Below, one piece after another: positions 15,636 to 51,607 of a DNA stretch of 64,000 nucleotides. Location of the stretch: positions 1,785,501 through 1,849,500 of the forward strand of contig NZ_AP019791.1 of assembly GCF_007164525.1 (NCBI RefSeq), read 5' to 3'. Position 1 is the stretch's first letter. Each line of letters begins with the position of its first letter. A model generated the notes under the pieces. The model was given only the letters and a program-made list of their open reading frames with translations, made no database searches and was not told the DNA's origin. The DNA comes from Rubrobacter xylanophilus. Its GTDB lineage: Bacteria > Actinomycetota > Rubrobacteria > Rubrobacterales > Rubrobacteraceae. The position numbers and the translations under genes are program-made.

Positions 15636-18600
15636 GTGCGGAGGCTGCTGCCGGCAGCCGTGCTCATCTCCGTGCTCATCGGCTGGCTCAGGTTCGAAGG
15701 GGAGAGAGCCGGGCTCTACGGCACGACCACCGGCGTCGTGATGATGACCGCCGCGAACATCCTGGTCGTCTTGGCGCTGATGCTGTGGGGAGCCCGGATG
15801 CTGCGGCGCGTTGAGCGCGGCCGGACCGCGGCGGAGGAGAACTACCGCTCCATCTACGAGAACGCGGTGGAGGGCATCTTCCAGAGCACCCCGGAGGGAA
15901 AACTCATCACCGCCAACCCCGCCATGGCACGCATGTTCGGCTACGGCTCCCCCCGGGAGATGGTCTCGGAGATGACCGACCTCGGCAGCCAGCTCTGGGA
16001 AAAGCCGGAAGACAGGGAACGCTTCGTGGAGAAGCTCCGACGGGAGGGCTCCGTCTCCGGGTTCGAGGCCCGGCTGCGGCGGAGGGACGGGAGCCCGCTG
16101 TGGGCCTCCCTCAGCGGGCGCGCGGTCACCGATGGCGAGGGCCGGGTGGTGCGTCTGGAGGGCGCGGTGCAGGACATCAGCTGGCGCAAGCGGCAGGAGG
16201 AGGCCCTGGAGGAGAGCCGCCGGCAGTTCAGGGATCTCTTCGAGCGCTCCGTGGACGCCCTGCTGATACACGACGGCGAGGGCAACATCGCGGACTGCAA
16301 CGCCGAAGCCTGCCGCAGTCTGGGCTACAGCAGAGAAGAGCTGCTGCGGATGAACGTCAGGGACTTCGCCACGAACCTCGTCCGCAGGGACCACAGACCC
16401 CCCGGGGAGCCCACGCTGTGGGAGCGGGCGCTCTCCGGAGATCCCGGGGTGGTCGCCGGGGTGCACTTCGGGGAGCATCGCCGCAGGGACGGGACGACCT
16501 TCCCGGTGGAGGTGCGGGTGGGACCCGTAGTCTATGACGGACGACGGATGATACTGGCCTCCGCCCGGGACATCACCGAGCGGAAACGGAAGGAGGAGGA
16601 GCTCAGGAGGGCCGAGGAAAGGTACCGCAGGCTCATCGAACAGATCCCGGGCATCGTCTACATAGAGGACATAGAGACTGGGGCCACCCTCTACGACAGC
16701 CCGAAGATAGAGGAGATCCTGGGCTACCCGGCCGACACCTACAAAAGCGATCCCCACTACTGGCAGAAGATCGTCCATCCCGAGGATCGGGAGCTCCTCC
16801 GGCGGGAAGAAGAGAAGGCCCTGAAGACGGGCAAGCTCAGCGTCGAGTACCGGGTCCTGGCCCAGGACGGCAGGGTGGTGTGGGTGCGGGAGGAGGCGAT
16901 CGTCATCCCCGGCGAACAGGGACAGGCGTCGGTGTGGCAGGGCCTGATCCTGGACATAACCGAGCGCAAGCAGGCCGAACAGGCGCTCTACGAGAGCGAG
17001 CAGCGCTTCCGCAGGTCCTTCGACGACGCCCCCATAGGCATGGCCCTCGTAAGCCCGGAGGGGCGCTTCCTGCAGGTCAACCGCGCCCTGTGTGAGATCA
17101 TCGGCTACCCGCCGGAGCGGCTGATGCAGAAGACCTTCCAGGAGATCACCCACCCGGAGGACCTGGAGAAGGATCTGGCGCTCCTGCGGCGCCTGATGGC
17201 CCGGGAGATTCCCAGATACCAGATGGAGAAGCGCTACATCCACGCCTCCGGACGGATCGTGTGGGCCCAGCTGAGCGTCTCGATGGTCACCGACGAGAAG
17301 GGCGAGCCCCTCCACTTCATCGGCCAGGTGCAGGACATCACCGAGAGAAAGCGGATAGAGGAGGAGCTGAGGGAGGCCAAGGAGCAGGCAGAGGCGGCGA
17401 GCCGGGCGAAGAGCGAGTTCGTGGCCAACATGTCCCACGAGATAAGGACCCCCATGAACGGCATCATCGGCATGGCCGAGCTGCTCCTGGACACCCCGCT
17501 GGACCCCGAGCAGGAGGAGTACGCGAGGACCATCCGCTCCTCCGGAGAGACCCTGCTCTCCATCCTCAACGACATCCTGGACTTCTCCAAGATAGAGGCC
17601 GGCAGGCTGACGCTGGAGAGGATCCCCTTCGAGATCCATAGGGAGGTCGAGGAGGTCGCCTCGCTGCTCGCCACCCGCGCCCACGCGAAGGGCCTCGAGC
17701 TCGTCTGCTTCGTGGAGCCCGAAGTCCCCCCGCTCCTGGAGGGCGACCCCTTCAGGCTCAGGCAGGTCCTCACCAACCTCATCGGCAACGCCATAAAGTT
17801 CACCGACGAGGGAGAGGTGGTGGTCCAGGCCTCCCTCTCCGACGGAAGCCCCACTCCGGAGGGGACGGTGGAGCTGCGCTTCGAGGTCACGGACAGCGGC
17901 ATAGGGATGAGCGAGGAGCAACAGCGGCGCCTCTTCGAGGCCTTCTCCCAGGCCGACGCCTCCACGACCCGCCGCTACGGGGGCACCGGCCTCGGGCTCG
18001 CCATAAGCCGCCAGCTGGTGGAGATGATGGGCGGGACGATCGGGGTGCGGAGCAGCCCCGGGGAGGGCTCCACCTTCCACTTCACCGCCCGATTCTCCCT
18101 CCCCGGGAGCGACGGCGGCTCCCCGCCGGAGAAGGCCGAAACGTACGTTGGACCGCCGCCCGAGGACCGCGAGAGCCTGGCCGGGTTGAAGGTCCTCATA
18201 GTGGACGACAACGCCACGAACAGGACCATCCTCTGCCGCCAGCTCGAGGCCTGGAGGATGCACCCGAAGAGCGTGCCGGGCGCGGAGGAGGCGATGAGGG
18301 AGCTCGCGGAGTCCGGGACCTTCGATGGCTCATCCTCCGGATACGAGCTGATCATCCTGGACATGCAGATGCCGGATGTGGACGGTCTCGAGCTCGCCCG
18401 CCGGATACGCGAGCGGCTTCCCACAGGAGCCCGAAGCTCACCCCGCCTCCTGCTCCTCACCTCGATGGACCCGGACATAAAGGAGAGGGCCCGCGCCTCG
18501 GGGATAGAGGCCACCCTACAGAAACCCGTCCGCCAGTCCCAGCTCTACGACGCCATAGCCAACCTCCTGCAGCGAAAGGAGCGGCGGCCCGCGCCGCGCC

Positions 18601-19421
18601 CGGCCGCGCGGGAGAGAGCCGCCTCCGGCGGGCTCGTGCTGCTCGCCGAGGACAACCCCGTCAATCAGCGGGTCGCCTCCCGCATGCTGCACAGGCTCGG
18701 CTACGAGGTGGAGGTGGCGCAGGACGGCGAGGAGGCGCTGGAGAAGCTCTTCGGCGAGGAGGGACGGGAGTACGCCGCCGTCCTCATGGACATCCAGATG
18801 CCGAGGATGGACGGGCTGGAGGCCACCCGCCGCATCCGCAACAAAGAAGAGGAAGAGGGGCTCCCCCGCCTCCCTATCATCGCCATGAGCGCCCACGCCA
18901 TGCAGGAGGACCGCACGAGGGCCCTGGAAGCGGGGATGGACCACTACATCTCCAAGCCGGTGAAGACGGCGGTGCTCGAGGAGGTACTGGAGCGCTTCGT
19001 CCGAAAGAGAGAGAAGGCGTCGCCCGGCGAACCCACCCCCTCCACCGCCGACGAACCCGCCCTGGCCCCGGAGAGCCTGCGGGAGCTCGACGAGCTCGGA
19101 GAGGAGGTCTTCGGCGAGCTCGCCGAGCTCTTCCTGGAGGACGCCCCCTCCAGGATAGCGGGTATGAAAGAGGCGCTCGAGAAGGAGGGGAGCTGCGAGG
19201 AGCGGGCCCAGAGGCTCCGCGCGCTCTCCCACGCCCTCAAGGGAAGCGCGGCGAGCCTGGGGGCCAAGAGGCTGTCCTCCCTGGCCCAAAAACTGAACGA
19301 GGGCACTTCGGCGGCCGCGGTGGAGCGGGAGGAGCAACGGAGAGACCTCCTCCGGCTCATGGAGGAGATCGAGCGGGAGTTCGCGCGGGTCAGGGAGGAG
19401 ATAGAGGGGCGGCTCAGCTAG
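15636..19421 (+). CDS. Hybrid sensor histidine kinase with four PAS domains, two receivers and Hpt
   Basis: Membrane-attached BarA-like kinase, 1,261 aa. Order: two TM segments (about 5-18 and 34-53), PAS1 66-180, PAS2 190-310, PAS3 318-436, PAS4 445-568, then the H-box [11 protein letters not shown] with phospho-His H601. The ATPase domain follows ([20 protein letters not shown]). Receiver 1 has D909 (ILDMQMPD), receiver 2 has D1052 (LMDIQMPR) and the Hpt domain has H1199 ([12 protein letters not shown]). No DNA-binding output is present, so the Hpt should pass phosphate to a separate receiver; the receiver-PP2C protein at 29581 is the obvious local candidate. GTG 15636 is used; a purine-rich site lies rather far upstream (15609-15614). 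Confidence 0.93.
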
Positions 19422-19836
19422 AGGGTCTTCGCTCGCGCAGGCGGACCATCGTGAGCGTCGTCCCGCCCCCGGGAGAGGGCGCGTACCGGACTTCGTCCAT
19501 GATGACGCGCATGAGGTGCACTCCGTAGCCGCTCTCGTGCGCCTGGCTCAGATCTGGGGGGGTGTAGGAGGCGGGATCGAAGGGCTTGCCGGTATCCCTG
19601 ATGCGGACCACGAGGCGTTCGGCGTCCGCGTCGAGCTCCAGGTCTATGGCGTTCCCGGCCGCCCCGCCGTAGGCGTGCTTTATCACGTTGGTGCAGGCCT
19701 CGGAGAGGGCCAGGCCGAGCCGGTGTGTCTCGTCCTCCGGGAAGCCCGCCTCCAGCGCGTGCTCCATCAGCCACCGGCGGGCCCGGGAGACCTCCTCCAA
19801 CCGGCTGTCTATCCGCAGCTTCGACCTCAAAAGCAC
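19414..19836 (-). CDS. RsbW/SpoIIAB-like serine kinase (anti-sigma-factor type ATPase)
   Basis: GHKL ATPase of about 140 aa. The N-box is [15 protein letters not shown], the G1 box [10 protein letters not shown], and the G2 region [16 protein letters not shown]. RsbW-type proteins phosphorylate a Ser on STAS antagonists and bind a partner, often a sigma factor. GTG 19836 is preferred (AGGGAG five bases upstream); an earlier GTG at 19869 has poor spacing. The 3' end overlaps the hybrid kinase's end by 8 bp. It is divergent from a STAS gene, and no sigma factor is adjacent, so it may act on a non-sigma target. Confidence 0.85.
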
Positions 19837-19966
19837 CGCCGCTCCCTGGCCCGCCCCACGAAAACGCACTCTCTTTCCAGAAGTCTACCAGCCCGCGGCA
19901 TTCTCCGGGACAACTGTGGTAGAGTGCTTGCCGTACGGGCGGTAAGGAGAAGGGGAGGAAGGCGTC

Positions 19967-20413: not shown

Positions 20414-21847
20414 ATGAGGACGCGCCTGGCGCACCTTCTCCGGCGGGGCGGGCAAGCCGGGAAACGTCCAGCCCGGACGCTCGCCTACGCCGAGACTGCC
20501 GCCGCCCTGGTCATCATCGTAGGCGCCGGGCTGCTCCTGCAACCGCAGAACCCGGGGTTCGTCGGGGTCTCTCCCCACCCCTTCTGGCTCGTCGTGATCC
20601 CCGTAGCCGCCCTGCACGGAAGCCCTCCGGGATATGCGGCGGGGGCGGCCTCCGCGCTGGTCTACCTGGGGCTCACCGCCGTGCAGGCGGGTTCGGTCAC
20701 CAATCCCGCCCTCCTGCGCCCGGACCTCCTTCTCGAACCCGTCCTCTTCCTGGTGGCCGGCGGGGCCCTCGGGGAGCTCAGGGAGGCCCAGCGGCGGCGG
20801 GAGGAGGCCCTCCTGCAGCGTCAGGAGGAGCTGGAGAGGGACCTGCAGGACCTCGCCCAGCGCTACCTGGCCTCCGTGGAGCTCGCCCGCGAGCTCGAGC
20901 GCAGGATCGCCGACCAGACCTCTACCGTCACCACGCTCTACGAGGCAGCGAAGGCGCTAGAGCGGCTGGAGGTCGAGGAGCTCTCCCCGGCGGTACTGGA
21001 GCTGGCCAGCAGCTTCGTCGACGTGGAGGCATGTTCACTCTACCTGCTCAGGGACGGCCGTTTCGTCCTTGCGGCCGGCCGGCCGGAGAATGCCTCTCGT
21101 CCGCGGGAGCTGGACGTCTCGGGCGGGCTCCCCGCGATCGTGAGCTCCGAGCGCCGGACGGCCACCGTACACGAGCTCCTCACCGAGCCAACCCCCGGCC
21201 GCCTGGCCCGCCAGCCGATGCTGATGGCCGCGCCCATACTAGACACCGACGGCGAGGTGGCCGGGATGCTGGTCGCCGAGCGGATGCCCTTCCTGCGCTT
21301 CACCCCGGCCGCAACGCGGCTGTTCACGCTGCTCGGAGACTGGGCCTCGAGCGCCTTCCAGCGGGCGCTGCGCTTCCAGCAGACGCGCGACAGGAACGTC
21401 GAGGACGAGCTCACCGGCGCCTACAACCACGCCTACCTGCTCAAGCGGGCCGAGGAGGAGGTCTTCCGGGCCAGGACCTACGGCGTCCCGCTCTCGCTGC
21501 TGGCGCTCCGGGCGGAGGACCACGAACGGATTCCCCCGGTGCGGCTTCCGGGGGTGCTGCGAACCCTGAGCCTGGTCTTTCGCCACCACATCCGCCCCGT
21601 CGACGTCCTGGGGAAACACGCCGAGGAGGGCACCTTCCTGCTGCTGCTCCCCCACCTCACCGCCGGGGAGGCCGAGGCGCTGGCGGAGAAACTCCGGAGG
21701 GAGGTCGAGGGTTTCGGCTTCAAGCCCTTCGAGACGGACGACCGCACCCTTCGGCTGTGCACGGGAAGGGCCACGTTCTCCGGAGCCGGAGGAGCTCGGG
21801 AGCTGGTGGAGGCCGCGGTGCGCTCCCTCGGGAAGGGGAGCGGATGA
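20414..21847 (+). CDS. pelD: PelD-like c-di-GMP receptor of polysaccharide synthesis
   Basis: Inner-membrane regulator, 477 aa. Four TM segments lie within about 28-120, a coiled coil at about 122-165, a GAF domain at about 175-320 and a GGDEF-derived domain at about 330-475. The catalytic motif has become AEEGT (403-407), but the inhibitory-site motif R394-P-V-D397 is intact exactly five residues before it. P. aeruginosa PelD has this arrangement and binds c-di-GMP to switch on Pel synthesis. It overlaps the next gene by ATGA. The assignment rests on architecture plus the PelE/F/G genes that follow. Confidence 0.88.
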   Translation: MRTRLAHLLRRGGQAGKRPARTLAYAETAAALVIIVGAGLLLQPQNPGFVGVSPHPFWLVVIPVAALHGSPPGYAAGAASALVYLGLTAVQAGSVTNPALLRPDLLLEPVLFLVAGGALGELREAQRRREEALLQRQEELERDLQDLAQRYLASVELARELERRIADQTSTVTTLYEAAKALERLEVEELSPAVLELASSFVDVEACSLYLLRDGRFVLAAGRPENASRPRELDVSGGLPAIVSSERRTATVHELLTEPTPGRLARQPMLMAAPILDTDGEVAGMLVAERMPFLRFTPAATRLFTLLGDWASSAFQRALRFQQTRDRNVEDELTGAYNHAYLLKRAEEEVFRARTYGVPLSLLALRAEDHERIPPVRLPGVLRTLSLVFRHHIRPVDVLGKHAEEGTFLLLLPHLTAGEAEALAEKLRREVEGFGFKPFETDDRTLRLCTGRATFSGAGGARELVEAAVRSLGKGSG

Positions 21848-22830
21848 TGGGACCGCTGCTGTGGCTCGTGAGCTTCCCGCTGGAGACGGCGGCGGGCTGG
21901 CTACTGTTGGGCGGGAGTCCGGGGCGCATCATCGCCTCCGTGGCGGTGCACGCGGCGGCCTGCTGCGTCTTCGGCTGCTCACTGCTCCGGGCCAGGGGAA
22001 GGGGCTGGCCGATGGTGGGCTTCACGCTCTCGCTGGTGGTCTTCCCGCTCGCCGGGATGCTCGCCGCGGCCCTGGCCTACGCGGCGGCGGCGCTCCCCCA
22101 GCCACGGTGGCGCCCCTCCGGAGAACCCGAGGTGAGAGAGGAAGACCCCCTCTCGCGGGCAAGGAGGGTGGAGATCTCGCTGCTCGAAGAGCGGGAGGTG
22201 GAGCCGGTGGTGGACGTGCTGCGGGAGGAAGACCCGGAGGCCAAGCGGGCGGCGATCGAGCGGCTCGCGCTGCGGCGCGACTCGGAGGCGATCCGGGTGC
22301 TTCGGGGGCTGCTGCACGACCCGTCCCCCGAGGCGCGGCTGTTCGCCTCGCTGACCCTCTCCCGGCTGGAGGACGAGATCGGCAAGGAGATCCTCGCCGC
22401 CCGCCGGGACGCCGAGAGAGCCCCGGAGGACCCGGCGGCGCGCGAGCGTCTCGCAGACCTCTACCTCGAGTACGCCCTCAGCGGGCTGCTGGAGGACGCC
22501 GCCCGGGACTACTATCTCAGGATGGCCTGCGAGGAGTACGAGGCTGCCCTCCGGGCCGGGGCCGGGAAGGGGCGCAACGGTCTGCGCCTCGCCCGGGCCC
22601 ATCTGGGGCTCGGCGAGATCGCGCAGGCCGCCGGGCTCCTCGACGAGCTGGGCCGCGAGCGCCCCGACGACCCGGAGGTGCACCTGCTCCGGATGGAGAC
22701 GATCTTCGACTTCGGCGACCTGCGGGAGCTCAAAACGTACGCCCGGCGGGTACTCGGGCGCCTGCCCGAGGGCTCCGAGGCCCGCGAGCTCGCCGGATGG
22801 TGGGCCGGGGAGGCCGAGGGTGGCGCGTAA
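21844..22830 (+). CDS. pelE: PelE-like membrane protein with helical repeats
   Basis: Protein of 328 aa. Two to three TM segments occupy about 1-85, then a soluble alpha-helical part follows. It has a HEAT-like stretch (AAIERLALRRDSEAIRVLRG) and TPR-like repeats to the end. PelE in Gram-negative operons likewise joins TM segments to TPRs and works beside PelD and PelG in the synthase complex. Start ATG 21844 overlaps the pelD stop; the next ATG at 21847 is equally possible. Sequence similarity alone would be weak; position between pelD and pelF decides the call. Confidence 0.68.
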   Translation: MMGPLLWLVSFPLETAAGWLLLGGSPGRIIASVAVHAAACCVFGCSLLRARGRGWPMVGFTLSLVVFPLAGMLAAALAYAAAALPQPRWRPSGEPEVREEDPLSRARRVEISLLEEREVEPVVDVLREEDPEAKRAAIERLALRRDSEAIRVLRGLLHDPSPEARLFASLTLSRLEDEIGKEILAARRDAERAPEDPAARERLADLYLEYALSGLLEDAARDYYLRMACEEYEAALRAGAGKGRNGLRLARAHLGLGEIAQAAGLLDELGRERPDDPEVHLLRMETIFDFGDLRELKTYARRVLGRLPEGSEARELAGWWAGEAEGGA

Positions 22831-24328
22831 CGGCGGGGTGGTGGACGTGTGCCTGGTCGTCGAGGGGACCTACCCCTACGTCCGGGGCGGGGTCTCCTCC
22901 TGGGTGCACAACCTCATCCGGGGGCTCCCGGAGAAGAGCTTCAGGGTGCTCTTCATCGGGCCGTCGCCCGAGATGGACTACGAGGAGCGCTACGAGCTGC
23001 CGGAGAACCTCCTGGGCATCGACAAGGTCTACGCCCAGGACTTCCGGCCGGAGAGCATGAGGAGCCCGGTAGCCGGGAAAGACTCCCGGAAGGGCTGGGA
23101 GATCCTGCGGAGCTTCCACGAGCATCTCGCGCAGGGGCGGGGGGTGCCGCTCTTCGACGAGGTCTACGCCGCGGCCGGGAACCCCAAGAGCCGCTCGCTC
23201 GGGGTGCAGGATCTCTTCCGCTCGCCCGAGTCCTGGCGGATGGTGGTGGACCTCTACCGCAGAAACGGCCGCGACGCCTCCTTCGTGGACTACTACTGGA
23301 CCTGGCGCTTCACACACCTGCCGCTCTTCCAGATGATGCAGGCCGAGGTCCCTCCGGCCAGGGTCTACCACACCGTCTCCACCGGCTACGCCGGGTTCCT
23401 GGCGGCGCTGGCCAAAAAGCGGACCGGCTCCCCCATGATCGTCACCGAGCACGGCATCTACACCCGGGAGCGGAGCATCGAGATAGCGCAGGCCGACTGG
23501 ATCCACGTCACCGAGCCCCAGGACTACAGGATCCGGCGCACCCAGGGCTTCTTCAAGCAGTGGTGGACCAACATGTTCAGGATGATGAGCCGGCTCTGCT
23601 ACCAGGAGGCGGACCGGGTGATCACCATAACCCAGGTCAACCAGCGCTACCAGCTCGAAGAGGGGGCAGCACCCGAGAGTATGCTGGTCATCCCCAACGG
23701 CATAAGGCCCGAGAGGTTCCGCCCGGCCCGCGAGGCCCGACGCCCGGAGGAGGAGTTCGTCGTGGGGTTCGTCGGCCGGGTCGTCCCCATAAAGGACGTC
23801 AAGACCTTCATCCGGGCCATCAAGCTGGCCGAGCCTGAGATCCCCAACCTTCGGGCCTACGTCGTAGGCCCCAACGAGGAGGATCCGGAGTACTTCGCCG
23901 AGTGCCGCCAGCTCACCTCGCTCCTCGGGCTGGAGGACAGGATCGTCTACACCGGTCCCCAGGACGTGCTGGAGTACTACCGACGGATGCACGTGCTGGT
24001 GATCACCAGCATCAGCGAGGGTCAGCCGCTGGTCATCCTGGAGGCCAACAGCGCCGGGGTGCCGGTGGTGGCCACCAACGTGGGCGCCTGCGCCGAGCTG
24101 ATCCACGGCCGCACCCCCGAAGACCGGGCGCTGGGCCCCGGGGGCATCGTCACCGCGGTGGCCAGCCCCCGGGAGACGGCCGACGCCCTCATCCGGCTGG
24201 CCCGGAACCCACGGTTGCGAGAGAAGATGGCGCGGGCCGGCACAGTCCGGATGGAGCGCTTCTACCGGGAGGACGAGCTGAACAGGACTTATCTCGGGAT
24301 CTACGACGAGCTGGTGAAGGGGGGCTGA
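22820..24328 (+). CDS. pelF: PelF glycosyltransferase (GT4)
   Basis: Cytosolic GT-B enzyme, 502 aa, that polymerises the Pel chain from UDP-sugars. PelF hallmarks are EGTYPYVRGGVSSWVHNLI near 15-33, TEHGIYTRER around 209-218, and the retaining-GT4 EX7E motif at E400 and E408 (SEGQPLVILE). The GTG at 22820 lies inside the end of pelE (11-bp overlap). PelF normally needs PelD/E/G at the membrane, all encoded around it. The Aspergillus galactosaminogalactan polymerase Gt4c belongs to the same GT4 group. Confidence 0.95.
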   Translation: MARNGGVVDVCLVVEGTYPYVRGGVSSWVHNLIRGLPEKSFRVLFIGPSPEMDYEERYELPENLLGIDKVYAQDFRPESMRSPVAGKDSRKGWEILRSFHEHLAQGRGVPLFDEVYAAAGNPKSRSLGVQDLFRSPESWRMVVDLYRRNGRDASFVDYYWTWRFTHLPLFQMMQAEVPPARVYHTVSTGYAGFLAALAKKRTGSPMIVTEHGIYTRERSIEIAQADWIHVTEPQDYRIRRTQGFFKQWWTNMFRMMSRLCYQEADRVITITQVNQRYQLEEGAAPESMLVIPNGIRPERFRPAREARRPEEEFVVGFVGRVVPIKDVKTFIRAIKLAEPEIPNLRAYVVGPNEEDPEYFAECRQLTSLLGLEDRIVYTGPQDVLEYYRRMHVLVITSISEGQPLVILEANSAGVPVVATNVGACAELIHGRTPEDRALGPGGIVTAVASPRETADALIRLARNPRLREKMARAGTVRMERFYREDELNRTYLGIYDELVKGG

Positions 24329-24331
24329 GAG

Positions 24332-25705
24332 GTGGCGGGTATAGGCTTCGAGCTGCAAAAGGCCCTCCGGGAGGAGAGCTACCTCGGCAAGATCCGGGGC
24401 TACCTCTACGCGGCGGTAATCTCCTCCGGTCCCTGGCTGCTCTCCGTGGTGGCGCTCAGCCTGCTCGGGGTCGTCTCGGCGACCTTTCTTTCGCGCGAGG
24501 CCGTGGCCCTCTTCGCGGCCACCATCACCCACACCTTCGCCGTCTCGCTCATCACCACCGGCCTGATACAGATGGTCGTCACCCGCTACCTCGCCGACGA
24601 GCTCTACATGAACCGTCCGGAGTCGGTCGGGCCCACCTTCGTAGCCGTCCTGGTTCTCTCCAGCGGGGTGCAGTTCGTGATCATAAACGCCCTGCTGGCC
24701 CTCACCGACCTCCCGCTCGGCTACCGGCTCCCGGCGGCGGCGCTCTACGTCGCCGTGAGCGGCCTCTGGGTGGCGATGGTCTTCCTCTCGGCCGCCCGCG
24801 ACTACCTCTCCATCGTGGCGGCCTTCGCGGCCGGGTATCTGATCAGCTTCCTCGCCGCCGCGCTGCTCGGCTCGCGCTACGGGCTCTCGGCCTACCTGAT
24901 GGGCTTCGCCGGCGGGCAGATGATCGCGCTGGGCCTGCTCTCGGCCCGGGTGCTGGCGGAGTTCGAGCCGGAGAGACCGTTGAACCTGAGCTTCGCCGGC
25001 TACTTCCGGCGCTACCCCTCCCTGGCGGCAATCGGCCTGACCTACAACCTGGGGCTGTGGGCGGACAAGATCGTCTTCTGGATCTCCCCGACCGGGGTGG
25101 ACGTGGGGAGCTTCATGAACGTCTTCCAGCCCTACGACACCTCGTTCTTCGTGGCGAGCCTGGTGATCATCCCGTCCCTCGCCCTGTTCACCGTGAACAT
25201 CGAGACGGACTTCTACACCCACTACAGGAGCTTCTACGACGCCATCCAGAGCCGGCTGAGCCTGGGGGACCTGCTAGCCGCGAAACGGGGCATGGCCCGC
25301 TCCCTGAAAGGGAGCTACCTCTCCCTGTTCAAGGTGCAGGGGGCGGTGGCCCTACTCTCCGTCACGGTGCTCACGCCCCTCACCCGCATCATGAATCTCC
25401 CTCCCGGTTACTGGCCGCTCTTCAGGGTGATGGTGCTGGGGATGAGCGCCCAGGTCTTTCTGCTGTTCACCGTCCTGATCCTGCTGTACCTCGACCTCCG
25501 GGGCAGCGCGCTCGCCGCCTGCTGCACGTTTCTGGCGGCGAACGTGGTGCTCACGGCGCTCACCATCCCGGCCGGGCCCGGCCTCTACGGCTACGGGTTC
25601 CTCGCCGCCTCGGTGCTCGGGGCGCTCTTCTCGGTGGCGCTATTGCGGGAGCGCTTCGGAAAGCTGGAGTACCTGACCTTCAGCCGGCAGCCGATGTCTT
25701 CGTGA
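24332..25705 (+). CDS. pelG: PelG membrane transporter
   Basis: Polytopic membrane protein, 457 aa, with about 12 TM segments. It opens with the family signature GIGFELQKALREESYLGKI, followed by ISSGPWLLS. PelG is a Wzx/MATE-like protein thought to export the growing polymer together with PelF. The GTG at 24332 comes 4 bp after the pelF stop, behind GAGAGG. Length equals that of Pseudomonas PelG. Membrane segments occur throughout except the loop around 290-325. Confidence 0.92.
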   Translation: MAGIGFELQKALREESYLGKIRGYLYAAVISSGPWLLSVVALSLLGVVSATFLSREAVALFAATITHTFAVSLITTGLIQMVVTRYLADELYMNRPESVGPTFVAVLVLSSGVQFVIINALLALTDLPLGYRLPAAALYVAVSGLWVAMVFLSAARDYLSIVAAFAAGYLISFLAAALLGSRYGLSAYLMGFAGGQMIALGLLSARVLAEFEPERPLNLSFAGYFRRYPSLAAIGLTYNLGLWADKIVFWISPTGVDVGSFMNVFQPYDTSFFVASLVIIPSLALFTVNIETDFYTHYRSFYDAIQSRLSLGDLLAAKRGMARSLKGSYLSLFKVQGAVALLSVTVLTPLTRIMNLPPGYWPLFRVMVLGMSAQVFLLFTVLILLYLDLRGSALAACCTFLAANVVLTALTIPAGPGLYGYGFLAASVLGALFSVALLRERFGKLEYLTFSRQPMSS

Positions 25706-25717
25706 GGTGAGAGAACC

Positions 25718-27673
25718 GTGCGACCACCACTCTACGTCCTCATCACGGTCTCATCGTTTTTCGCCCTCGGCCTGGCGGTCCTGTTCCTGACCCTACCCGG
25801 GGTGGGCCGGTACGAGATCGGGCTGCGGGTGCCGGAGAACTACGGAGAAGTCTCCCCCGACACGGCGGATGAGAGCGAATCCTCTCCGCACGCGCTGCCC
25901 CCGGCGACCTCACCGTGGCCCTCCTCCGAAGATCTAGGGTGCCCGAGCAGGGACCTGCGCCTGCTCGTCCTCTCGGCCGACGGCGAAGAGAGCACCCTCC
26001 CGGCCATCCGGCAAGCGCTGGACTACCTGGGCACCCCCTACTCGGTTTACGTGGCCTCCGAGGAGCCGCCGCTGACCCGCGAACGGCTCGCGGAGGGCTG
26101 CCACGGCTTCTATCAAGGCGTGATTCTGGCCAGCGGCAACCTCTCCTACACCCCGCCGGGAGAGGAGCGGTCGCGCAGCGCGCTCTCCGAGGAGGAGTGG
26201 GAGGCGCTGCGCGAATACGAGGCGGACTTCGGGGTGCGCCGGCTCGCCTGGTACGCCTACCCGCAGCCGGAGTACGGGCTCGGCCCGCCCGAAGCCTCCG
26301 GAGACGAACCCGTCCGGGGCCGGCTCACCAAACGGGGACGCGAGCTCTTCGGCTACCTGAACCCCGAGACCCCCGTGACGATCCGGGACGCCTTCGTCTA
26401 CCGCTCCCGTCCGGCGGAGGACGCCATCCCGCTGCTCACCGACGGCGAGGGGCATGCCCTCGCCGTCGTCGCCGACCATCCCGGCGGCCGGCAGACCCTC
26501 GCCCTCACCTTCTCCAGCAACCCCTGGCTCACCCACAACCTCCTCCTCTCCTACGGCCTCGTCGACTGGGTCACCGGCGGGCTCTTCCTGGGCGAGCGGC
26601 GGGTGTACCTCACCGCCCACGTGGACGACGTCTTCATCCCGAACCGGCTGATCGGCGGCGACTCCTACAGGATGACCGGCGACGACCTGCAGGCGACGCT
26701 CGCACGCCAGCGCGAGTGGCGCTCCCGAGAGCTCTTCCGCGAGATCCGGCTGGACATGGCGTACAACGCCTACGGGACCACCGGCCTCTACATCCCCGAC
26801 ACCCTCACCCCCACCGCCCGCGAGCTGGAGGGGGAGTTCCGCTGGATCAACCACACCTACCGCCATCTGGACTGGGACGAGGTCAGATACCAGACCGCCG
26901 CCTCCGAGCTGCGGCAGAACGACGTCTGGGCCCGGGAGACGGAACTCTCCCGCTACAGCCCGCTCAACCTCGTCACGCCGGAGTACTCGGGGATGAACAA
27001 CCCGGAGGCCATGCGGGCCGTCCGCGACGCGGGGGTCCGCTACATGGTCGGGGACACCTCCGAGCCGGGCTTCGACAACCCCTCTCCGAACGCCGGCCTG
27101 GACCACCCGCTCGAGCCCTCCGTCTTCGTCGTTCCCCGCTACCCCACCAACCTGGGCTTCGACGTCTCCACCCCCGAGGAGTGGACCAGCGACTACAACC
27201 GGCGCTACCGGGAATTCTGGGGCGAGAGGCTCTCCTACGATGAGGTGCTGGACCGCGAGAGCGACGTGCTCCTCTCCTACATGCTAAAGGGGGACATAAA
27301 CCCGCTGATGTTCCACCAGGCCAACCTCAGGGCCTACGATGGGGAGCACACCCTGCTCACCGACCTCCTGCAGGCCACCCTGCGAAAATATGCCCGGCTC
27401 TACAGGCTGCCGGTCCTGAGCCCCCCGATGCAGGAGCTGGGGGAGCGCGTGGAGCGCCGGACGACCTACGACGCGGCGGGCGTGATGGCGAGCGTGGTGC
27501 CCGGCGAGAGGATACGGCTGCTCTCCCGGCGGGCGGCGGAGGCCCCGGTCACGGGGCTCAGGACCCCCGGGGCGGAGACGTACGGCGGGGAACCCACCAC
27601 CCGCGTCGGGCTCGAGCCCGGCGAGCCCGTGGTCCTGCCCCTGCGGAGCGGCCGGGAAGGCGGGGGATCGTAG
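25718..27673 (+). CDS. Secreted polysaccharide deacetylase, Agd3/PelA-type (CE18-like)
   Basis: Protein of 651 aa anchored by one N-terminal TM segment (about 5-27) with the rest extracellular. A Rossmann-like N-terminal domain precedes the deacetylase barrel, which has the metal-site motif H301-V-D303-D304 (TAHVDDVF) and N378-H379-x3-H383 (NHTYRH). This pattern matches the Agd3 deacetylase of Aspergillus and the PelA deacetylase domain, which de-N-acetylate GalNAc-containing polymers and make them cationic. GTG 25718 follows GAGGTGAGA. Directly behind pelG, it is surely part of the same operon. It lacks a fused hydrolase domain; a separate GH135-like gene lies at 28048. Confidence 0.85.
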   Translation: MRPPLYVLITVSSFFALGLAVLFLTLPGVGRYEIGLRVPENYGEVSPDTADESESSPHALPPATSPWPSSEDLGCPSRDLRLLVLSADGEESTLPAIRQALDYLGTPYSVYVASEEPPLTRERLAEGCHGFYQGVILASGNLSYTPPGEERSRSALSEEEWEALREYEADFGVRRLAWYAYPQPEYGLGPPEASGDEPVRGRLTKRGRELFGYLNPETPVTIRDAFVYRSRPAEDAIPLLTDGEGHALAVVADHPGGRQTLALTFSSNPWLTHNLLLSYGLVDWVTGGLFLGERRVYLTAHVDDVFIPNRLIGGDSYRMTGDDLQATLARQREWRSRELFREIRLDMAYNAYGTTGLYIPDTLTPTARELEGEFRWINHTYRHLDWDEVRYQTAASELRQNDVWARETELSRYSPLNLVTPEYSGMNNPEAMRAVRDAGVRYMVGDTSEPGFDNPSPNAGLDHPLEPSVFVVPRYPTNLGFDVSTPEEWTSDYNRRYREFWGERLSYDEVLDRESDVLLSYMLKGDINPLMFHQANLRAYDGEHTLLTDLLQATLRKYARLYRLPVLSPPMQELGERVERRTTYDAAGVMASVVPGERIRLLSRRAAEAPVTGLRTPGAETYGGEPTTRVGLEPGEPVVLPLRSGREGGGS

Positions 27674-27697
27674 AGGCGAGAAAGGGGGTCTGGCGAG

Positions 27698-28051
27698 ATG
27701 GGGATCCTGAAGGTGCGAAAGGAAGGCGACGGAATCACCGTGGTCGGCTGCGAGCCGGGCACGGTGCTCGACGCGGCCGGTTCCAGCGAACTGCGCACAC
27801 GGGCCGAAGAGCTGCTCGGAGCCCCTCCCCGACTGGTCTTCGACATGGGCGGCGTGGAATTCGTGGACAGCTCGGCCATCGGGGCGCTCGTCGGGCTGCT
27901 GCGCTCGGCCCGGGAGGCCGGCGGAGACGTGAGGCTGGCCCGGGTGGGACGGGACGTGCGCACGATCTTCGAGCTCACCCGACTCGACTCGGTATTCGAA
28001 ATCCATCCCTCCGTCGAGGAGGCGGTGCTCTCCTTCCGGAACGCTCCCTAG
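27698..28051 (+). CDS. STAS-domain anti-sigma-factor antagonist, second copy
   Basis: STAS protein of 117 aa with the acceptor loop VEFVDSSAIGALVGLLR and a final VFEIHPSVEEAVLSF helix. ATG 27698 follows AAAGGGGG. It ends the pel operon, 24 bp after the deacetylase, and its stop overlaps the convergent Sph3-like gene. Together with the STAS gene before pelD it brackets the synthase genes. It could be a target of the RsbW-like kinase (19414) and the PP2C phosphatase (29581). Confidence 0.88.
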   Translation: MGILKVRKEGDGITVVGCEPGTVLDAAGSSELRTRAEELLGAPPRLVFDMGGVEFVDSSAIGALVGLLRSAREAGGDVRLARVGRDVRTIFELTRLDSVFEIHPSVEEAVLSFRNAP

Positions 28052-29577
28052 TCCAGCACCAGGAAGGCGTCCACGTCAATCCGGGTGCCGGTGGAGCGGG
28101 CGTCGGCGGAGCCCAGAGGCCGGACCTCCAGCGAGTGCGTCCCCCGCTCGCCGAAGTCCCTGCGGAAGACGACCTCCCGCGCCTTTACCATGTCACCGTA
28201 GAGGTCCACGGTCGGCACCCGTACCCCGTCGACCCACACCTCGGCCCTGCCGCGGTTCGGCCCCTCTACCGCCACCCAGCCCACCTCGCGACCCGTGAAG
28301 ACGAACCGGGCGACTGCCGGGGGATCCTTCTCGTGCCTGAGCCCCCCTCCGTAGGCTCCGGACGGTTGTGCCAGCCTCCACCGGCCCGCCGGGTAGGTGA
28401 CCCCGGGCCCGTCCTCCTGACTGGCGGCGAGCGAGAACGTCCGGGATACGGCCCAGCCGCCGGTGTTCCCGGCTCTATCCCGGGCCCGGATCCTGAAGGC
28501 GTGGTCGCCGGGAGCGAGCCGGAGGGTCACCCCGGTGGCGGAGGGCTCCGGCAACGAGACGGGCTCGAAGGGTCCACCGCCCTCGCTGTGCTCCAGCTCG
28601 TACCCTGCCACGCCGCTCTGCCCGTCGGAGCCGGACCAGCTCACCCGCACAGGGATCGGCGAGGAGCCGGTCCCGAGCTGCGCAGAGAGGACAAGGTTCT
28701 CCACCGGAGCAGACACCGTCGGCGGCGTCTCGTCGGCCGTGTCGGCGGCGGCCCGCCGCTCGGCCTCCCAGTAGTCCGGGCCGGGCAGGGTGTCCCAGGG
28801 GTTGGGGAGATCGTCCGGGGTGACGTAGATCCAGCCCGCGTTGCGCCGCTTGCTCAGGTAGACGTCCCTCAGCATCTCCGCCTCCCCCGGAACGGCGTAG
28901 ACCAGGTGCCAGAAGCGCTCCGGCGGGTAGCCGGAGACCCATGCCGGCGCCGAGTACTCCTCGGTGTAGGTGGCGTGGGAACCCTCGAAGTTCACGACGA
29001 TGTCCGCGGCGGACATGTAGCACTCGCTGGTCTGGGTGCCCGGGTTGAGGACCACCAGCCCGCCCCGCGCCTTTATGTAGTCGTAGAGCCCGGCGTAGTA
29101 GGGCTGGTCGGCGCAGCCGGTGCTCGCCTCGTCCAGGAAGATGCCGTCCACCCCGTACCAGGAGTAGTAGCGGTCGATCTCCTCCCGCACCCGCTCCCCA
29201 GAGCGGGCGGCGTAGCTGGTGTGCACGTAACCGAGCACCGTGAGCCCCGAAGCCCGGCTCTCGCGCACCTGGGCGGCGTAGTCCGGGTTCGGCGCCTCCC
29301 CGGGGCCGCTGGCCGGGTTTATGACGGCGAGGCGGGCCTCGGGGAAGGAGGCCCCCAGCCGGTCCCACAGAGAGCCCGGGTAGAAGTACGAGGGGACCGC
29401 GATGGACTGGGAGTCGGCGGCGAGCACGACCTCCCTCCCCCCGCCCAGGAGGGCCGCCGTAGCGAGCAGCGCCACCAGCAGCCCCCGCCTTCCGGGGAAC
29501 CCGAAAAGCGCGGCGAGCACCATCCTGGTTCTCTCACGAACCCTCACGGAGGAGGTTATCGGCGGGCGGGAAGGCAT
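28048..29577 (-). CDS. Secreted spherulin-4/Sph3-type glycosidase (GH135-like) with Fn3-like and C-terminal beta domain
   Basis: Protein of 509 aa. A signal segment lies at about 31-54. A (beta/alpha)8 domain covers about 58-290 (VPSYFYPGSLWDRL) with likely catalytic acids D149-E150 (GIFLDEAS) and a further acid E198 (NFEGS). A fibronectin-III-like module spans about 300-385, and a C-terminal jelly-roll-like domain follows (GWVAVEGPNRGRAEVWVDG). Sph3 of Aspergillus is an endo-alpha-1,4-N-acetylgalactosaminidase needed for galactosaminogalactan synthesis. ATG 29577 is preceded by GGGAGGG lying within the end of the PP2C gene, so the two are coupled. It faces the pel operon. Confidence 0.85.
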   Translation of the reverse strand: MPSRPPITSSVRVRERTRMVLAALFGFPGRRGLLVALLATAALLGGGREVVLAADSQSIAVPSYFYPGSLWDRLGASFPEARLAVINPASGPGEAPNPDYAAQVRESRASGLTVLGYVHTSYAARSGERVREEIDRYYSWYGVDGIFLDEASTGCADQPYYAGLYDYIKARGGLVVLNPGTQTSECYMSAADIVVNFEGSHATYTEEYSAPAWVSGYPPERFWHLVYAVPGEAEMLRDVYLSKRRNAGWIYVTPDDLPNPWDTLPGPDYWEAERRAAADTADETPPTVSAPVENLVLSAQLGTGSSPIPVRVSWSGSDGQSGVAGYELEHSEGGGPFEPVSLPEPSATGVTLRLAPGDHAFRIRARDRAGNTGGWAVSRTFSLAASQEDGPGVTYPAGRWRLAQPSGAYGGGLRHEKDPPAVARFVFTGREVGWVAVEGPNRGRAEVWVDGVRVPTVDLYGDMVKAREVVFRRDFGERGTHSLEVRPLGSADARSTGTRIDVDAFLVLD

Positions 29578-37593: not shown

Positions 37594-38193
37594 ATGAAGC
37601 ACATCGAGATGGACACCGCCAGGGGCAGGGAGCGCATCCCGCCGGGGCAGTACCTCGTCGGGGAGCGGTGGCCGGTGCTGACCTACGGCCCCACCCCCGA
37701 GGTGGACCTGCGCAGCTGGGACTTCGCAGTCACCGGGCTCGTGGAGAACCCGCTGCGCCTCACCTGGGAGGAGTGGGAGGAGCTGCCCACCGTCGAGGTG
37801 AAGGCGGACATGCACTGCGTCACCTCCTGGAGCAGGCTGGACAACCTCTGGGGCGGGGTGCAGGCGAAGCACGTCCTCGAGCTGGCGCGACCGAGGCCCG
37901 AGGCCTGCTACGTCTCGGTCTTCTGCGACGGCGGATATACGACCAACCTGCCGCTCGAGGAACTCTACGAGGAGGATGTGCTCTTCGCCACCCATCACGA
38001 CGGAGAGCTCCTCACCCCGGAGCACGGCTGGCCGCTGCGGCTGGTGGTCCCGCGTCTGTACGCCTGGAAGAGCGCCAAGTGGGTGCGGGGGATGGAGCTC
38101 CTCGCGGAGGACAGGCCCGGCTTCTGGGAGCAGAACGGCTACCACAACTACGGCGATCCCTGGCGGGAGCAGCGCTACAGCTTCAGCCTGTGA
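37594..38193 (+). CDS. Molybdopterin-dependent oxidoreductase, sulfite-oxidase/YedY fold
   Basis: Protein of 199 aa with the oxidoreductase molybdopterin-binding domain only. The Mo-ligating cysteine lies in ADMHCVTSWSRLDN, with other cofactor-site segments FCDGGYTTN and GWPLRLVVPRLYAWKSAKWV. No signal peptide or Tat motif is present, unlike E. coli YedY/MsrP, so it should be cytosolic. The dimerisation domain of sulfite oxidase is missing. ATG 37594 follows AGAAGGAG. Substrate unknown. Its 3' end overlaps the convergent sulfotransferase by 11 bp. Confidence 0.85.
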   Translation: MKHIEMDTARGRERIPPGQYLVGERWPVLTYGPTPEVDLRSWDFAVTGLVENPLRLTWEEWEELPTVEVKADMHCVTSWSRLDNLWGGVQAKHVLELARPRPEACYVSVFCDGGYTTNLPLEELYEEDVLFATHHDGELLTPEHGWPLRLVVPRLYAWKSAKWVRGMELLAEDRPGFWEQNGYHNYGDPWREQRYSFSL

Positions 38194-39109
38194 GCGAATA
38201 CCCGTAGTGCGGCAGGAGCGGCAGGGTCAGCGCGGTGGCGACGGCCCGGTCGCGAGGAGACATCCCGCTCCTCCACCGCTCGTCGGGCCTGAGCTCCACC
38301 GCCCCGGTCTCGAAGCGGTTGGGGTTGCCGGAGACGGTGTGGCTTATACCGAGCTTCACCTCCCGCTCGCCCACGAGCGGGAGGTCGGCCCCCGGCTCCC
38401 CGGCGAAGTCCAGGATGGAGCGGAGGTTCGGTCCCGGCTCCGCGACGAAGTCCTCGTAGCGGAGCCGCAGGTACCGCCCGTTCCTCCACAGCGCCTCGGC
38501 GGAGAGGTTCCAGGCGTCCCAGAGCACGGCGCTCCGCGCCGGCCCCATGCGGAACATGTAGCGCCGCATCTCGCTGTCCGGCTGCTCCTTCTTCTTCAGC
38601 CACGAGTAGGCGGCGGCGCGGGGGTCCCGGACCAGGTGCACCACGCGCAGGTCCACCCCCGGGACCATGCCCACGGCGTAGCCGTAGGCGGGCTCCTTGG
38701 AGGAGTCGACGATGACCCGGCTCCCGGTGACCTCGGCCATCGCCCGGTAGAGCCGGCCGGTGTTGGCCAAATACTCCCGCAGCCGGGCAGCGATGCGCCG
38801 CCGGCCGGCCGGCAGCAGCATGGGAAGCACATGCCGGGTGCGGGCGCCAGAGGCCTGCAGGGAGATCATCCGCCGGGCGTCCACCGCGTCCATCCCTCCG
38901 AAAGCCCTCTCGAAGACCTCCCGCCACACCGGGCACTCCCTGAAGGGGGTGCCGCAGCCGCACAGGCGGTTCTCCAGCACGTTGTGCTTCCAGATGAAGT
39001 TCAGCTCGCCCGCCGAGAAGAAGCCCTCCACCTGGCCGAGCGAGTTGGCCAGGATGGTGCTCCCGCTGCGGCCGAGCCCGGCGACGTAGAGAACCTTAAG
39101 ACCGTCCAC
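38183..39109 (-). CDS. Sulfotransferase
   Basis: PAPS-dependent enzyme of 308 aa. The 5'-phosphosulfate loop GLGRSGSTILAN starts at residue 11 and the 3'-phosphate motif is VRDPRAAAYSW. Four Cys residues in LCGCGTPFRECPVW are typical of bacterial polysaccharide sulfotransferases. GTG 39109 follows GGAGGGG and overlaps the flippase end by 14 bp. It is last in a four-gene minus-strand run that includes a flippase, so the acceptor is probably a surface glycan. Confidence 0.88.
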   Translation of the reverse strand: MDGLKVLYVAGLGRSGSTILANSLGQVEGFFSAGELNFIWKHNVLENRLCGCGTPFRECPVWREVFERAFGGMDAVDARRMISLQASGARTRHVLPMLLPAGRRRIAARLREYLANTGRLYRAMAEVTGSRVIVDSSKEPAYGYAVGMVPGVDLRVVHLVRDPRAAAYSWLKKKEQPDSEMRRYMFRMGPARSAVLWDAWNLSAEALWRNGRYLRLRYEDFVAEPGPNLRSILDFAGEPGADLPLVGEREVKLGISHTVSGNPNRFETGAVELRPDERWRSGMSPRDRAVATALTLPLLPHYGYSLTG

Positions 39110-40706
39110 GGCCCCTCCGCAAATAGCGTCTGGCCACGTTCCAGAAGGCGGCGACGAACTCGCGGTCCGTCGCCGAGAGCCCGAAGAGCAGGAGCAGCGC
39201 CAGGTACGAGACGCCGAACGCCGCCCCCACGGCGACTATGGTGGGGATGGCGGCCGAGAAGGGGAGCGCGAGCCCCAGCAGGTAGGCCGCGCCCGCGGCC
39301 AGGAGCCCGGCCGCCAGCGGTTTGAGCCACTCGGCGTTGTACGGCCAGAAGCCCAGCCGCCGCCGGACGGCGGCGAGCGTCAGGGTGTTCTCGGAGATGA
39401 TCGCGGAGGACATCCCGATCGCAGCGCCCAGGATCTTGGCCTCCGGGGTGGAGGCGAGTCCCACCAGCAGAACGCTCACCACGACCCCGACGAGGGCCGC
39501 GGTCGCGGTGGCGAACATCACCACGTTCTGGTTGTCGGTCATCGCGAGCATCCTCGGGGTCGGCCCCACCGAGGAGCTGTAGAGCTGGGCGAAGGCCACG
39601 AGGATGAGGGCGGCCCACCCGGCGGTGAAGTCGCCGCCGAAGAGGGCCAGTATCTCGTGCGAGAGCAGGAGGATGACCATGAAGATGGCGAAGGCCCCCA
39701 TGAAGATCCAGCGCGAGATGTCCTTGTAGAGACGCCCCATGTTCTGCCGGTCGCCCTGGGCGTGGAGGCTGGAGATGATGGGTGAGAAGATGCCGCTGAA
39801 GGCAAACCGGACGATGGTGGAGAAGGTGGCGGTGCGGGCGGCGGCGTTGAAGATCCCGACCGGCGCCCCGGAGGCGAAGTAGGCGAGGATCCAGGTCGCA
39901 GACCAGGTGTTGAGGTACTGGGCCCCGGTGGAGATACTCATGGGCACCGAGACGGAGAAGAGGGCCCGGGTCTCGAACTTGGGCCTGACCTTGGGGTCGA
40001 AGATCTCCGGGAAGAGCCGCCACAGGAAGTAGAGGGCAACCACCCCGCCGAGCAGCATGGAGAGCCCGTAGGCCGCGACGACCCCAACGATGCCGTCGGT
40101 GACCAGGTAGAAGGCCGGCACCAGCAGCAGGTAGAGCGCCGGCCGGATTATCTGCTGGACGTAGGCGGCGTAGGTGACGGTCTGGAAGCCCTGGGTGGCC
40201 CACAGCACCATCATCATGAACACGAAGAAGGGCAGCACGGCCGAGAAGGCCCGCAGCACGCCGGCCATGGTGGGCTCCTTGTAGTACCAGCCGGCCATGA
40301 AGTCCGCCCCGAAGAACATCACCGCCGAGAGCAGCAGGCTCACCAGACAGGAGACGGCCACCGCCTGGATTATGGTGCCCCGCACCCGCGAAGCGTCCCC
40401 CCGGGCCCTGTAGTGTGCCACGTAGCGGACGACCCCGTTCTCCATCCCGAAGCGAGAGACGATCTGGGCGAGGTTGAGGGCCGCCACGCCCGCGGTGTAG
40501 AACCCGTAGGAGGCGGGCCCGAAGAGCCGGGCTATTAGGATCTGGGTGAGGTACCCCAGCAGCCTCCCCATCCCCTGCCCGGCGGTGCTTATCCCGGCTC
40601 CGCGGGCGACGCGGGCCACGTAGGAGTCCTCTCCGGAGGGCACCACCTCCGGCGCCCCGGAGCGCGGCTCTTTCCCGGCAGGGTTGGGGGGAACCCGCGA
40701 ACTCAT
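39096..40706 (-). CDS. Oligosaccharide flippase (Wzx/MurJ-superfamily)
   Basis: Polytopic membrane protein, 536 aa, with about 14 TM segments after a soluble ~30-residue N-terminus. The opening GAGISTAGQGMGRLLGYLTQILIARLFGP is characteristic of polysaccharide-export MOP proteins. It should move lipid-linked repeat units across the membrane. ATG 40706 lacks a Shine-Dalgarno; a TATAAT ends 8 nt before it, as at nth. It is flanked by a sulfotransferase and a membrane protein. It could serve the polymer made by the 45-53 kb operon, which has a ligase but no flippase of its own. Confidence 0.88.
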   Translation of the reverse strand: MSSRVPPNPAGKEPRSGAPEVVPSGEDSYVARVARGAGISTAGQGMGRLLGYLTQILIARLFGPASYGFYTAGVAALNLAQIVSRFGMENGVVRYVAHYRARGDASRVRGTIIQAVAVSCLVSLLLSAVMFFGADFMAGWYYKEPTMAGVLRAFSAVLPFFVFMMMVLWATQGFQTVTYAAYVQQIIRPALYLLLVPAFYLVTDGIVGVVAAYGLSMLLGGVVALYFLWRLFPEIFDPKVRPKFETRALFSVSVPMSISTGAQYLNTWSATWILAYFASGAPVGIFNAAARTATFSTIVRFAFSGIFSPIISSLHAQGDRQNMGRLYKDISRWIFMGAFAIFMVILLLSHEILALFGGDFTAGWAALILVAFAQLYSSSVGPTPRMLAMTDNQNVVMFATATAALVGVVVSVLLVGLASTPEAKILGAAIGMSSAIISENTLTLAAVRRRLGFWPYNAEWLKPLAAGLLAAGAAYLLGLALPFSAAIPTIVAVGAAFGVSYLALLLLFGLSATDREFVAAFWNVARRYLRRGRGRS

Positions 40707-40714
40707 GGCGTCAG

Positions 40715-40720
40715 ATTATA
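40715..40720 (-). promoter_or_regulatory. -10 element of the flippase gene, possible leaderless start
   Basis: TATAAT on the minus strand overlapping the stop codon of the upstream gene; CTGACGCC then separates it from the ATG. The arrangement equals that of nth. No good -35. Confidence 0.4.
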
Positions 40721-41384
40721 TAGGTGTTTGGCCGGCGTTTACCCGGTCCCGCTTGCCGGAGGCCCTCCGCTTCCTTAGCAACCGCCTCACCTCCCCGACC
40801 AGCACCACCAGCCCGAGCCACGCCCACCCCACCCCGAACATGACCCACATCGCCTCCCCCACCGGCCCGTAGTCCCTCATGACGGAGATGAGCCCCCCGA
40901 GGGAGCCTATGGCGAAGGGCAGCGTCCCCGCCAGCGCGACCCGCCGCTCCCGGGCCACCCCGAACCCGAAGAGCAAAGACCCCGCGCACAGCAGCACGAG
41001 CCCCGCCCGCATGGTCCTGTAGGCCGGGGCGGTCATGATGTAGACGTCGTCGAGGCGTATATAGAACTTGCCGACGTCCCCCGCCACCGTGAGGAGCCCG
41101 CCGAGCACCGCCACGGCAAACCCTACGCGCTCCAGCCCCCCGGCCCGCCGCCCCCGCAGGGCGAACAGGTGCGCGTACAGCCCCACGAGCCCCACGAGCA
41201 TCAGAAGGGGGGCCGAAGGAAAGAGCTTCCAGAAGACCTCGGGGGTCTTGTATTTGTACTCAGAGAGGTAGACCCCGAGCGGGGAGAGCGCCCACAGTAC
41301 GCCGCCGGGAATGCACAGCAGCCACCCGAGCCCGAGCGCCCGGCGGGCCGAGAGGGGAGGTCGGGATCTCTCGCTGCGGGCCAC
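40716..41384 (-). CDS. Conserved membrane protein, unknown function
   Basis: Protein of 222 aa with about six TM segments (for example LGLGWLLCIPGGVLWALSPLG, LLMLVGLVGLYAHLFAL and MRAGLVLLCAGSLLFGFG, each one helix). A basic tail follows (RRLLRKRRASGKRDR). Not recognised as a named family. The GTG at 41384 comes 4 bp after the sulfatase-like stop and has no clear ribosome site, so translation probably depends on coupling. Confidence 0.7.
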   Translation of the reverse strand: MARSERSRPPLSARRALGLGWLLCIPGGVLWALSPLGVYLSEYKYKTPEVFWKLFPSAPLLMLVGLVGLYAHLFALRGRRAGGLERVGFAVAVLGGLLTVAGDVGKFYIRLDDVYIMTAPAYRTMRAGLVLLCAGSLLFGFGVARERRVALAGTLPFAIGSLGGLISVMRDYGPVGEAMWVMFGVGWAWLGLVVLVGEVRRLLRKRRASGKRDRVNAGQTPI

Positions 41385-41388
41385 GGGA

Positions 41389-42861: not shown

Positions 42862-42918
42862 AGAACATGCCCCTCATCTTCAGCCGCATACTCTATTACA
42901 CTCGCCGCATCACGTCAT

Positions 42919-42944
42919 GGTATCGGGAGGCGGTATCCGATACC
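42919..42944. promoter_or_regulatory. Palindromic operator candidate for PadR
   Basis: GGTATCGG at 42919-42926 is followed by the perfect palindrome GGTATC-C-GATACC at 42932-42944, 15 bp before the PadR start. The repeated GGTATC half-sites fit an autoregulatory dimer site. The region also separates padR from the divergent sulfatase-like operon, so it could control both. Confidence 0.5.
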
Positions 42945-51601: not shown

Positions 51602-51607
51602 GCCGGC

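Follow-up and report, generated by a model that had tools for sequence, protein, structure and literature searches.

The galactosaminogalactan cluster of Aspergillus fumigatus consists of uge3, gtb3, agd3, ega3, and sph3. Bacterial operons with agd3 homologs, some of them actinobacterial and accompanied by spherulin-4 genes, were published in 2020, together with results that favor a bacterial source of the fungal cluster (PMC7229062). Pel operons were also mentioned in Rubrobacteria in 2020 (PMC7112194), and the Gram-positive pelDEA(DA)FG operon of Bacillus cereus has been characterized (PMC7112168), its deacetylase being later placed in family CE26 (PMC13254593). Given these reports, neither the enzyme families nor the underlying concept treated here is new, and most of the Pel/CE18 finding in Rubrobacter was foreseeable from published surveys. 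Here, we analyzed a 64,000-nucleotide stretch of Rubrobacter xylanophilus (assembly GCF_007164525.1, contig NZ_AP019791.1, positions 1,785,501 to 1,849,500; referred to as the window), which harbors a mosaic pel locus that joins canonical PelF and PelG with a CE18 deacetylase. Rubrobacter is a heat-loving soil bacterium. What is new is the mosaic nature of the locus and the partner switch wrapped around it. In the literature searched, we found neither a pel operon containing a partner switch nor CE18 and GH135 enzymes combined with a canonical PelDEFG set.

A canonical Pel synthase and exporter followed by CE18 and GH135 genes

The host genome examined was a single contig of 3,022,875 bases. 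The original prediction had read the locus as encoding a Pel-like synthase, with the CE18 and GH135 enzymes as separate proteins, and this reading holds. All six genes that it named were present at their coordinates, as follows:

20414 to 21847, plus strand: pelD, with transmembrane (TM) region, GAF domain, degenerate GGDEF domain (AEEGTF), and RxxD at residues 394 to 397
21844 to 22830, plus strand: pelE, with two TM helices and HEAT/TPR repeats
22820 to 24328, plus strand: pelF, a GT4 glycosyltransferase (NCBIfam NF038011, E value 7e-152, 506.8 bits, cut-off 100)
24332 to 25705, plus strand: pelG, an exporter with about 10 TM helices by hydropathy (PF16933, E value 9e-139, 463.6 bits, cut-off 29)
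25718 to 27673, plus strand: CE18/CBM87 (Agd3-type) deacetylase, with one N-terminal TM helix and residues D303/D304, H379/H383, R474, and M531/H533
28048 to 29577, minus strand: GH135 (Sph3-type) glycosidase, with a signal-like N terminus, an FN3-like region, a C-terminal beta-rich part, and residues D149/E150/E198

As seen, the four pel genes occupy positions 20414 to 25705 and are followed by the CE18 gene, with the GH135 gene facing them from the minus strand. The overlaps of pelD with pelE and of pelE with pelF, and the gaps of 3 bp between pelF and pelG and 12 bp between pelG and the CE18 gene, give an operon-like spacing. A promoter scan of the region upstream of the operon gave no sigma-70 match, and terminator-like sites in the locus were few and weak. 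As anticipated in the original prediction, no PelB or PelC was found between the genes of the locus. A Pfam scan found no epimerase in or beside the cluster; a phosphoglucose isomerase-like gene at 33015 was identified as phosphoglucose isomerase itself. The nearest complete relative was a congener with a contig of 3,225,748 bases (G015), and this congener (locus L006) has the whole set of genes in the same order, those for the STAS proteins, kinase, and phosphatase described below among them.

Profile, sequence, and position evidence bore out the predicted family assignments of PelD, PelE, PelF, PelG, and the CE18 and GH135 enzymes. In addition to their strong profile matches, PelF and PelG fell in the canonical Pel clade in trees. 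PelD was supported by a phmmer match to the PelD of an Azospirillum locus (1e-29) and by a weak match to a solved PelD structure (4e-4); the Pfam model PelD_GGDEF (PF16963) matched nothing in the host genome or the 14 control genomes. The RxxD motif of PelD was invariant in nine aligned PelDs and lies five residues ahead of AEEGTF, which occupies the GGDEF position, a motif state that fits a putative cyclic di-GMP (c-di-GMP) receptor without cyclase activity. Since the host genome has five strong GGDEF matches elsewhere, c-di-GMP is likely made. The assignment of PelE was based on its position, its layout of TM helices and HEAT/TPR repeats, and weak matches (1e-6 to 1e-8) to the gene intervening between pelD and pelF elsewhere.

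Both fungal-related enzymes fell within the predicted families. The deacetylase matched PF25115 (Agd3_CE; E value, 1.6e-26) and PF25116 (CBM87; E value, 8.5e-12), both above the curated cut-offs; these are CE18 models, and the protein does not belong to the PelA-type deacetylase class (CE21/CE26). Its only significant PDB match was the solved fungal Agd3 (6nwz; E value, 2.6e-25, by sequence), and it was 83% identical to a homolog from a Rubrobacter metagenome-assembled genome (MAG). The CE18 motifs CM1 to CM4 were present. When the protein was aligned with the fungal chain as well as with bacterial homologs, the seven catalytic residues named for Agd3 (D377, D378, H510, H514, R613, M666, and H668; PMC7229062) were identical at the positions listed above. 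The glycosidase matched PF12138 (Spherulin4) with an E value of 1.9e-45 and 155.7 bits (cut-off, 30.2) and the solved Sph3 (5d6t) with an E value of 6.4e-17 by sequence. The Sph3 catalytic residues D166/E167 and E222 (PMC10485009) aligned with the identical D149/E150 and E198. In the GH135 proteins of Streptomyces and Kocuria, the first catalytic pair is Asp-Arg. Among plasmid records, the GH135 protein closest to that of Rubrobacter (52% identity) was found on Vitreoscilla filiformis plasmid pVF1 (L038, 7971 to 8672), where the gene is solitary and has neither CE18 nor Pel genes around it.

Mosaic composition of the locus

In most CE18 loci elsewhere (Deinococcus, Thermus, Streptomyces, Kocuria, and relatives), the CE18 gene accompanies a DUF3492-type glycosyltransferase and a multi-spanning protein of about 420 to 515 amino acids, without Pfam matches where scanned; nucleotide-sugar enzyme and polygalactosaminidase genes often adjoin. 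One actinobacterial locus (G040) had CE18 without a DUF3492-type glycosyltransferase. The membrane protein beside the CE18-linked glycosyltransferases was considered as a remote PelG and rejected, with an hhalign probability of 0.1%. In a PelF tree built without B. cereus, the CE18-linked glycosyltransferases formed a group of 10 and the canonical PelFs from PelG loci a group of 12, both with 100/100 support. Rubrobacter PelF belonged to the latter, in agreement with the predicted PelF assignment; within this Pel group it joined Azospirillum and other Proteobacteria, not Cetobacterium or the actinobacterial MAGs, with moderate support (94/92).

CE18 occurred in 5 of 397 sampled Actinomycetota genomes, two of which were Rubrobacter. 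All three Rubrobacter genomes with CE18 also had PelG, and among 40 Rubrobacteria genomes PelG, CE18, and full-length Spherulin4 were found in the same three. PelG was above the cut-off in none of the 23 other CE18-bearing genomes (20 Deinococcota and 3 Actinomycetota), several of the Deinococcota CE18 matches being weak themselves. The canonical Pel loci that were fetched had no CE18 match, and no PelF or PelG match lay within 12 kb of the B. stagnalis CE18 genes. Since the scans for CE18 and PelG left out Firmicutes, Chloroflexota, and Proteobacteria, and Gram-negative CE18 genes near Pel outer-membrane genes have been reported (PMC7229062), the mosaic may not be unique. As for CE18 copy number, a Deinococcus aquaticus plasmid (L064) carries two CE18 genes in tandem, and one Deinococcota genome (G470) had ten CE18 matches.

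A predicted partner switch around the pel genes

A predicted complete RsbU/V/W-like partner switch, overlooked in the original prediction, surrounds the pel genes, and a hybrid kinase gene lies next to it:

15636 to 19421, plus strand: hybrid histidine kinase with PAS repeats, HisKA, HATPase, two REC domains, and Hpt (His ~1199), by Pfam
19414 to 19869, minus strand: RsbW-like serine kinase (HATPase_c_2; PF13581, E value 4e-31), divergent from the pel operon, conserved in L006
19967 to 20386, plus strand (exact start uncertain): RsbV-like STAS protein 1 (LDSTGLG; PF01740, E value 1.7e-17), 27 bp before pelD, conserved in L006
27698 to 28051, plus strand: SpoIIAA/RsbV-like STAS protein 2 (VDSSAIG; PF01740, E value 5.8e-18), 24 bp after the deacetylase gene, conserved in L006
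29581 to 30744, minus strand (start set from conservation): REC-SpoIIE serine phosphatase (PF07228, 4.5e-38; PF00072, 2.7e-30), conserved in L006

The plus strand thus reads STAS-pelDEFG-CE18-STAS, with the RsbW-like kinase gene divergent and the REC-SpoIIE gene 3 bp upstream of the GH135 gene. The parts of a partner switch are all represented: a SpoIIE phosphatase, STAS proteins with a putative phospho-acceptor serine, and a HATPase_c_2 kinase. In these proteins, we recognized what we take to be the STAS serines (in LDSTGLG and VDSSAIG), the N/G1/G2 boxes of the kinase, the metal-binding Asp of the phosphatase, the REC Asp, and the Hpt His. An ortholog of the hybrid kinase lies at the same place in L006, and its position makes this kinase a possible signal input of the locus. 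The gene linkage suggests that the switch acts on Pel.

Proposed mechanism and alternative explanations

Judging from its gene content, the locus probably makes a cationic Pel-type polymer. PelF would polymerize UDP-N-acetylgalactosamine (UDP-GalNAc), and the chain would be exported by PelG with PelD and PelE, as their families suggest. The membrane-anchored CE18 enzyme would deacetylate the emerging chain, giving a cationic galactosamine (GalN)/GalNAc matrix polymer, and the secreted, separately transcribed GH135 endo-glycosidase could cleave alpha-1,4-GalNAc stretches and so set length or release. Synthesis would be gated by c-di-GMP at the RxxD site of PelD, where the residues are observed and binding is predicted. 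The parts of the switch and their linkage are evident in the locus, and we infer their wiring and target: as a second input, the hybrid kinase would signal through Hpt to the REC-SpoIIE phosphatase, leading to dephosphorylation of one or both STAS proteins, and the RsbW-like kinase would oppose this phosphatase. We consider it likely that the locus is a Gram-positive Pel system with CE18 and GH135 enzymes substituting for the PelA-type enzyme and with a c-di-GMP gate and a partner switch. We give even odds to the fuller proposal that a canonical c-di-GMP-gated PelDEFG captured CE18 and GH135 in the place of PelA, with a phosphorelay feeding an in-operon phosphatase/STAS/kinase switch that controls its output at the post-translational level.

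Several observations weigh against this interpretation. The cluster has no epimerase and the GalE-like epimerases of the genome were all below the cut-off, which leaves UDP-GalNAc supply uncertain. Among the genes around the locus, no sigma factor or other switch target was recognized, a genome-wide sigma-factor search not having been made. The AlphaFold models were unusable, with a mean pLDDT (predicted local distance difference test) score of 35 for the CE18 enzyme, from a 3-row alignment, and 44 for the GH135 enzyme, from a single sequence. Finally, the three co-occurring genomes belong to one genus and may reflect a single evolutionary event.

It seems quite unlikely that the product is, as in the fungal cluster, a galactosaminogalactan-like heteropolymer of galactose and GalNAc instead of Pel. 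CE18 and GH135 enzymes are indeed the tailoring pair of that cluster, and both Rubrobacter proteins align with the solved fungal enzymes; however, the locus has a canonical PelF polymerase and PelG exporter, alongside PelD and PelE, the cluster lacks a Uge3-like epimerase, and the host genome has no match to PF03537, the model for GH114 (Ega3-type) enzymes. The original prediction had called the two enzymes fungal-type. The families are correct, but the label is misleading, since both are common across bacteria, and it had already been proposed that the fungal cluster came from bacteria (PMC4817252, PMC7229062). Descent of the fungal cluster from a locus like that of Rubrobacter, an ancestral arrangement also put forward in the original prediction, would agree with the two common families and with this earlier proposal of transfer from bacteria to a fungus. 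Nevertheless, the Rubrobacter deacetylase groups with bacterial CE18s, and fungal Agd3 (one partial sequence, fungal sampling in the trees being one sequence per family) formed a long branch that, under a midpoint root, joined outside every bacterial CE18 row and showed no particular affinity to Rubrobacter; the GH135 tree was too sparse and long-branched to place Sph3. Moreover, the Rubrobacter glycosyltransferase is a canonical PelF, and clusters elsewhere match the fungal gene content better. Plasmids of Streptomyces californicus (L036) and Kocuria rosea (L037) carry CE18, a PelF-like glycosyltransferase outside the Pel group, a membrane protein, spherulin-4, and polygalactosaminidase, making them near-complete bacterial counterparts of the fungal cluster (epimerase-type genes occur in L036, and transposase genes lie on both sides of the set in Kocuria). 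The placement of Agd3 and these gene sets do not support the ancestral arrangement, which we regard as very improbable.

The GH135 gene and its phosphatase neighbor might also form an independent operon that abuts the pel genes by chance. The opposite strand of the glycosidase gene and the occurrence of GH135 genes apart from CE18 elsewhere, such as in Vitreoscilla, would be consistent with this, but both STAS genes lie inside the pel transcription unit, within 27 bp of pelD and 24 bp of the CE18 gene, the congener retains the entire gene order, and in Rubrobacteria Spherulin4 is found together with PelG and CE18, which makes such an arrangement unlikely.

Other features of the window

A second, separate polysaccharide region, at 38183 to 53132, possibly makes a sulfated Wzx/Wzy-type polymer and includes:

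38183 to 39109: sulfotransferase
39096 to 40706: Wzx-like flippase
41389 to 42861: sulfatase
45104 to 46510: initiating sugar transferase
49328 to 50938: Wzy/O-antigen ligase-like protein

Between 53253 and 55848, a gene for a small secreted protein (start LRKVMLVAAMLAMALVAAAPALAQANAVGG) is present four times in tandem, with a spacing of 640 to 730 bp and 80 to 90% identity; the two copies scanned matched no Pfam family.

Comparison with known systems

The Rubrobacter locus is a variant Pel locus, not a textbook Pel. It shares with Pseudomonas aeruginosa pelABCDEFG and B. cereus pelDEA(DA)FG a PelD with an I-site, PelE, PelF, and PelG, in the same order, and with B. cereus the separation of the deacetylase and hydrolase genes and the absence of PelB and PelC. 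Unlike in these systems, the deacetylase is CE18, rather than CE21 (PelA) or CE26 (PelA-DA), and is placed after pelG, the hydrolase is GH135, and STAS, kinase, and phosphatase genes lie inside the cluster.

The bacterial agd3-homolog operons (PMC7229062, Fig. 8) likewise have CE18/CBM87 beside a PelF-like glycosyltransferase and a membrane protein, with spherulin-4 in some Actinobacteria. However, their glycosyltransferase belongs to a different clade, their membrane protein shows no relationship to PelG, and they have GH114-type genes and no PelD or PelE. The CE18 family thus accompanies canonical Pel machinery in Rubrobacter and another glycosyltransferase/membrane-protein pair elsewhere, suggesting that, in GalNAc-type matrices, tailoring modules and polymerase/exporter modules can be exchanged. 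As to the A. fumigatus cluster, CE18 and GH135 enzymes with the same catalytic residues are common to both, whereas the Rubrobacter cluster has no uge3 or ega3 counterpart and a canonical Pel synthase and exporter replace the fungal glycosyltransferase. Coming from a thermophile genus, the Rubrobacter enzymes may be stable reagents to cut or deacetylate Pel and fungal galactosaminogalactan.

If the switch is real, the Pel complex would be gated by both c-di-GMP and serine phosphorylation. A REC-containing phosphatase acting on a STAS protein is also found in SypE-SypA of Vibrio fischeri, which has a polysaccharide/biofilm link (PMC8256260, PMC4517449), and in HptB-HsbR-HsbA of P. aeruginosa, which has a c-di-GMP link and Hpt input (PMC5085249, PMC6482189) and in which HsbA binds a diguanylate cyclase (PMC5085249). 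The Rubrobacter switch differs from both in having a separate kinase and two STAS genes and in sitting in an actinobacterial pel operon.

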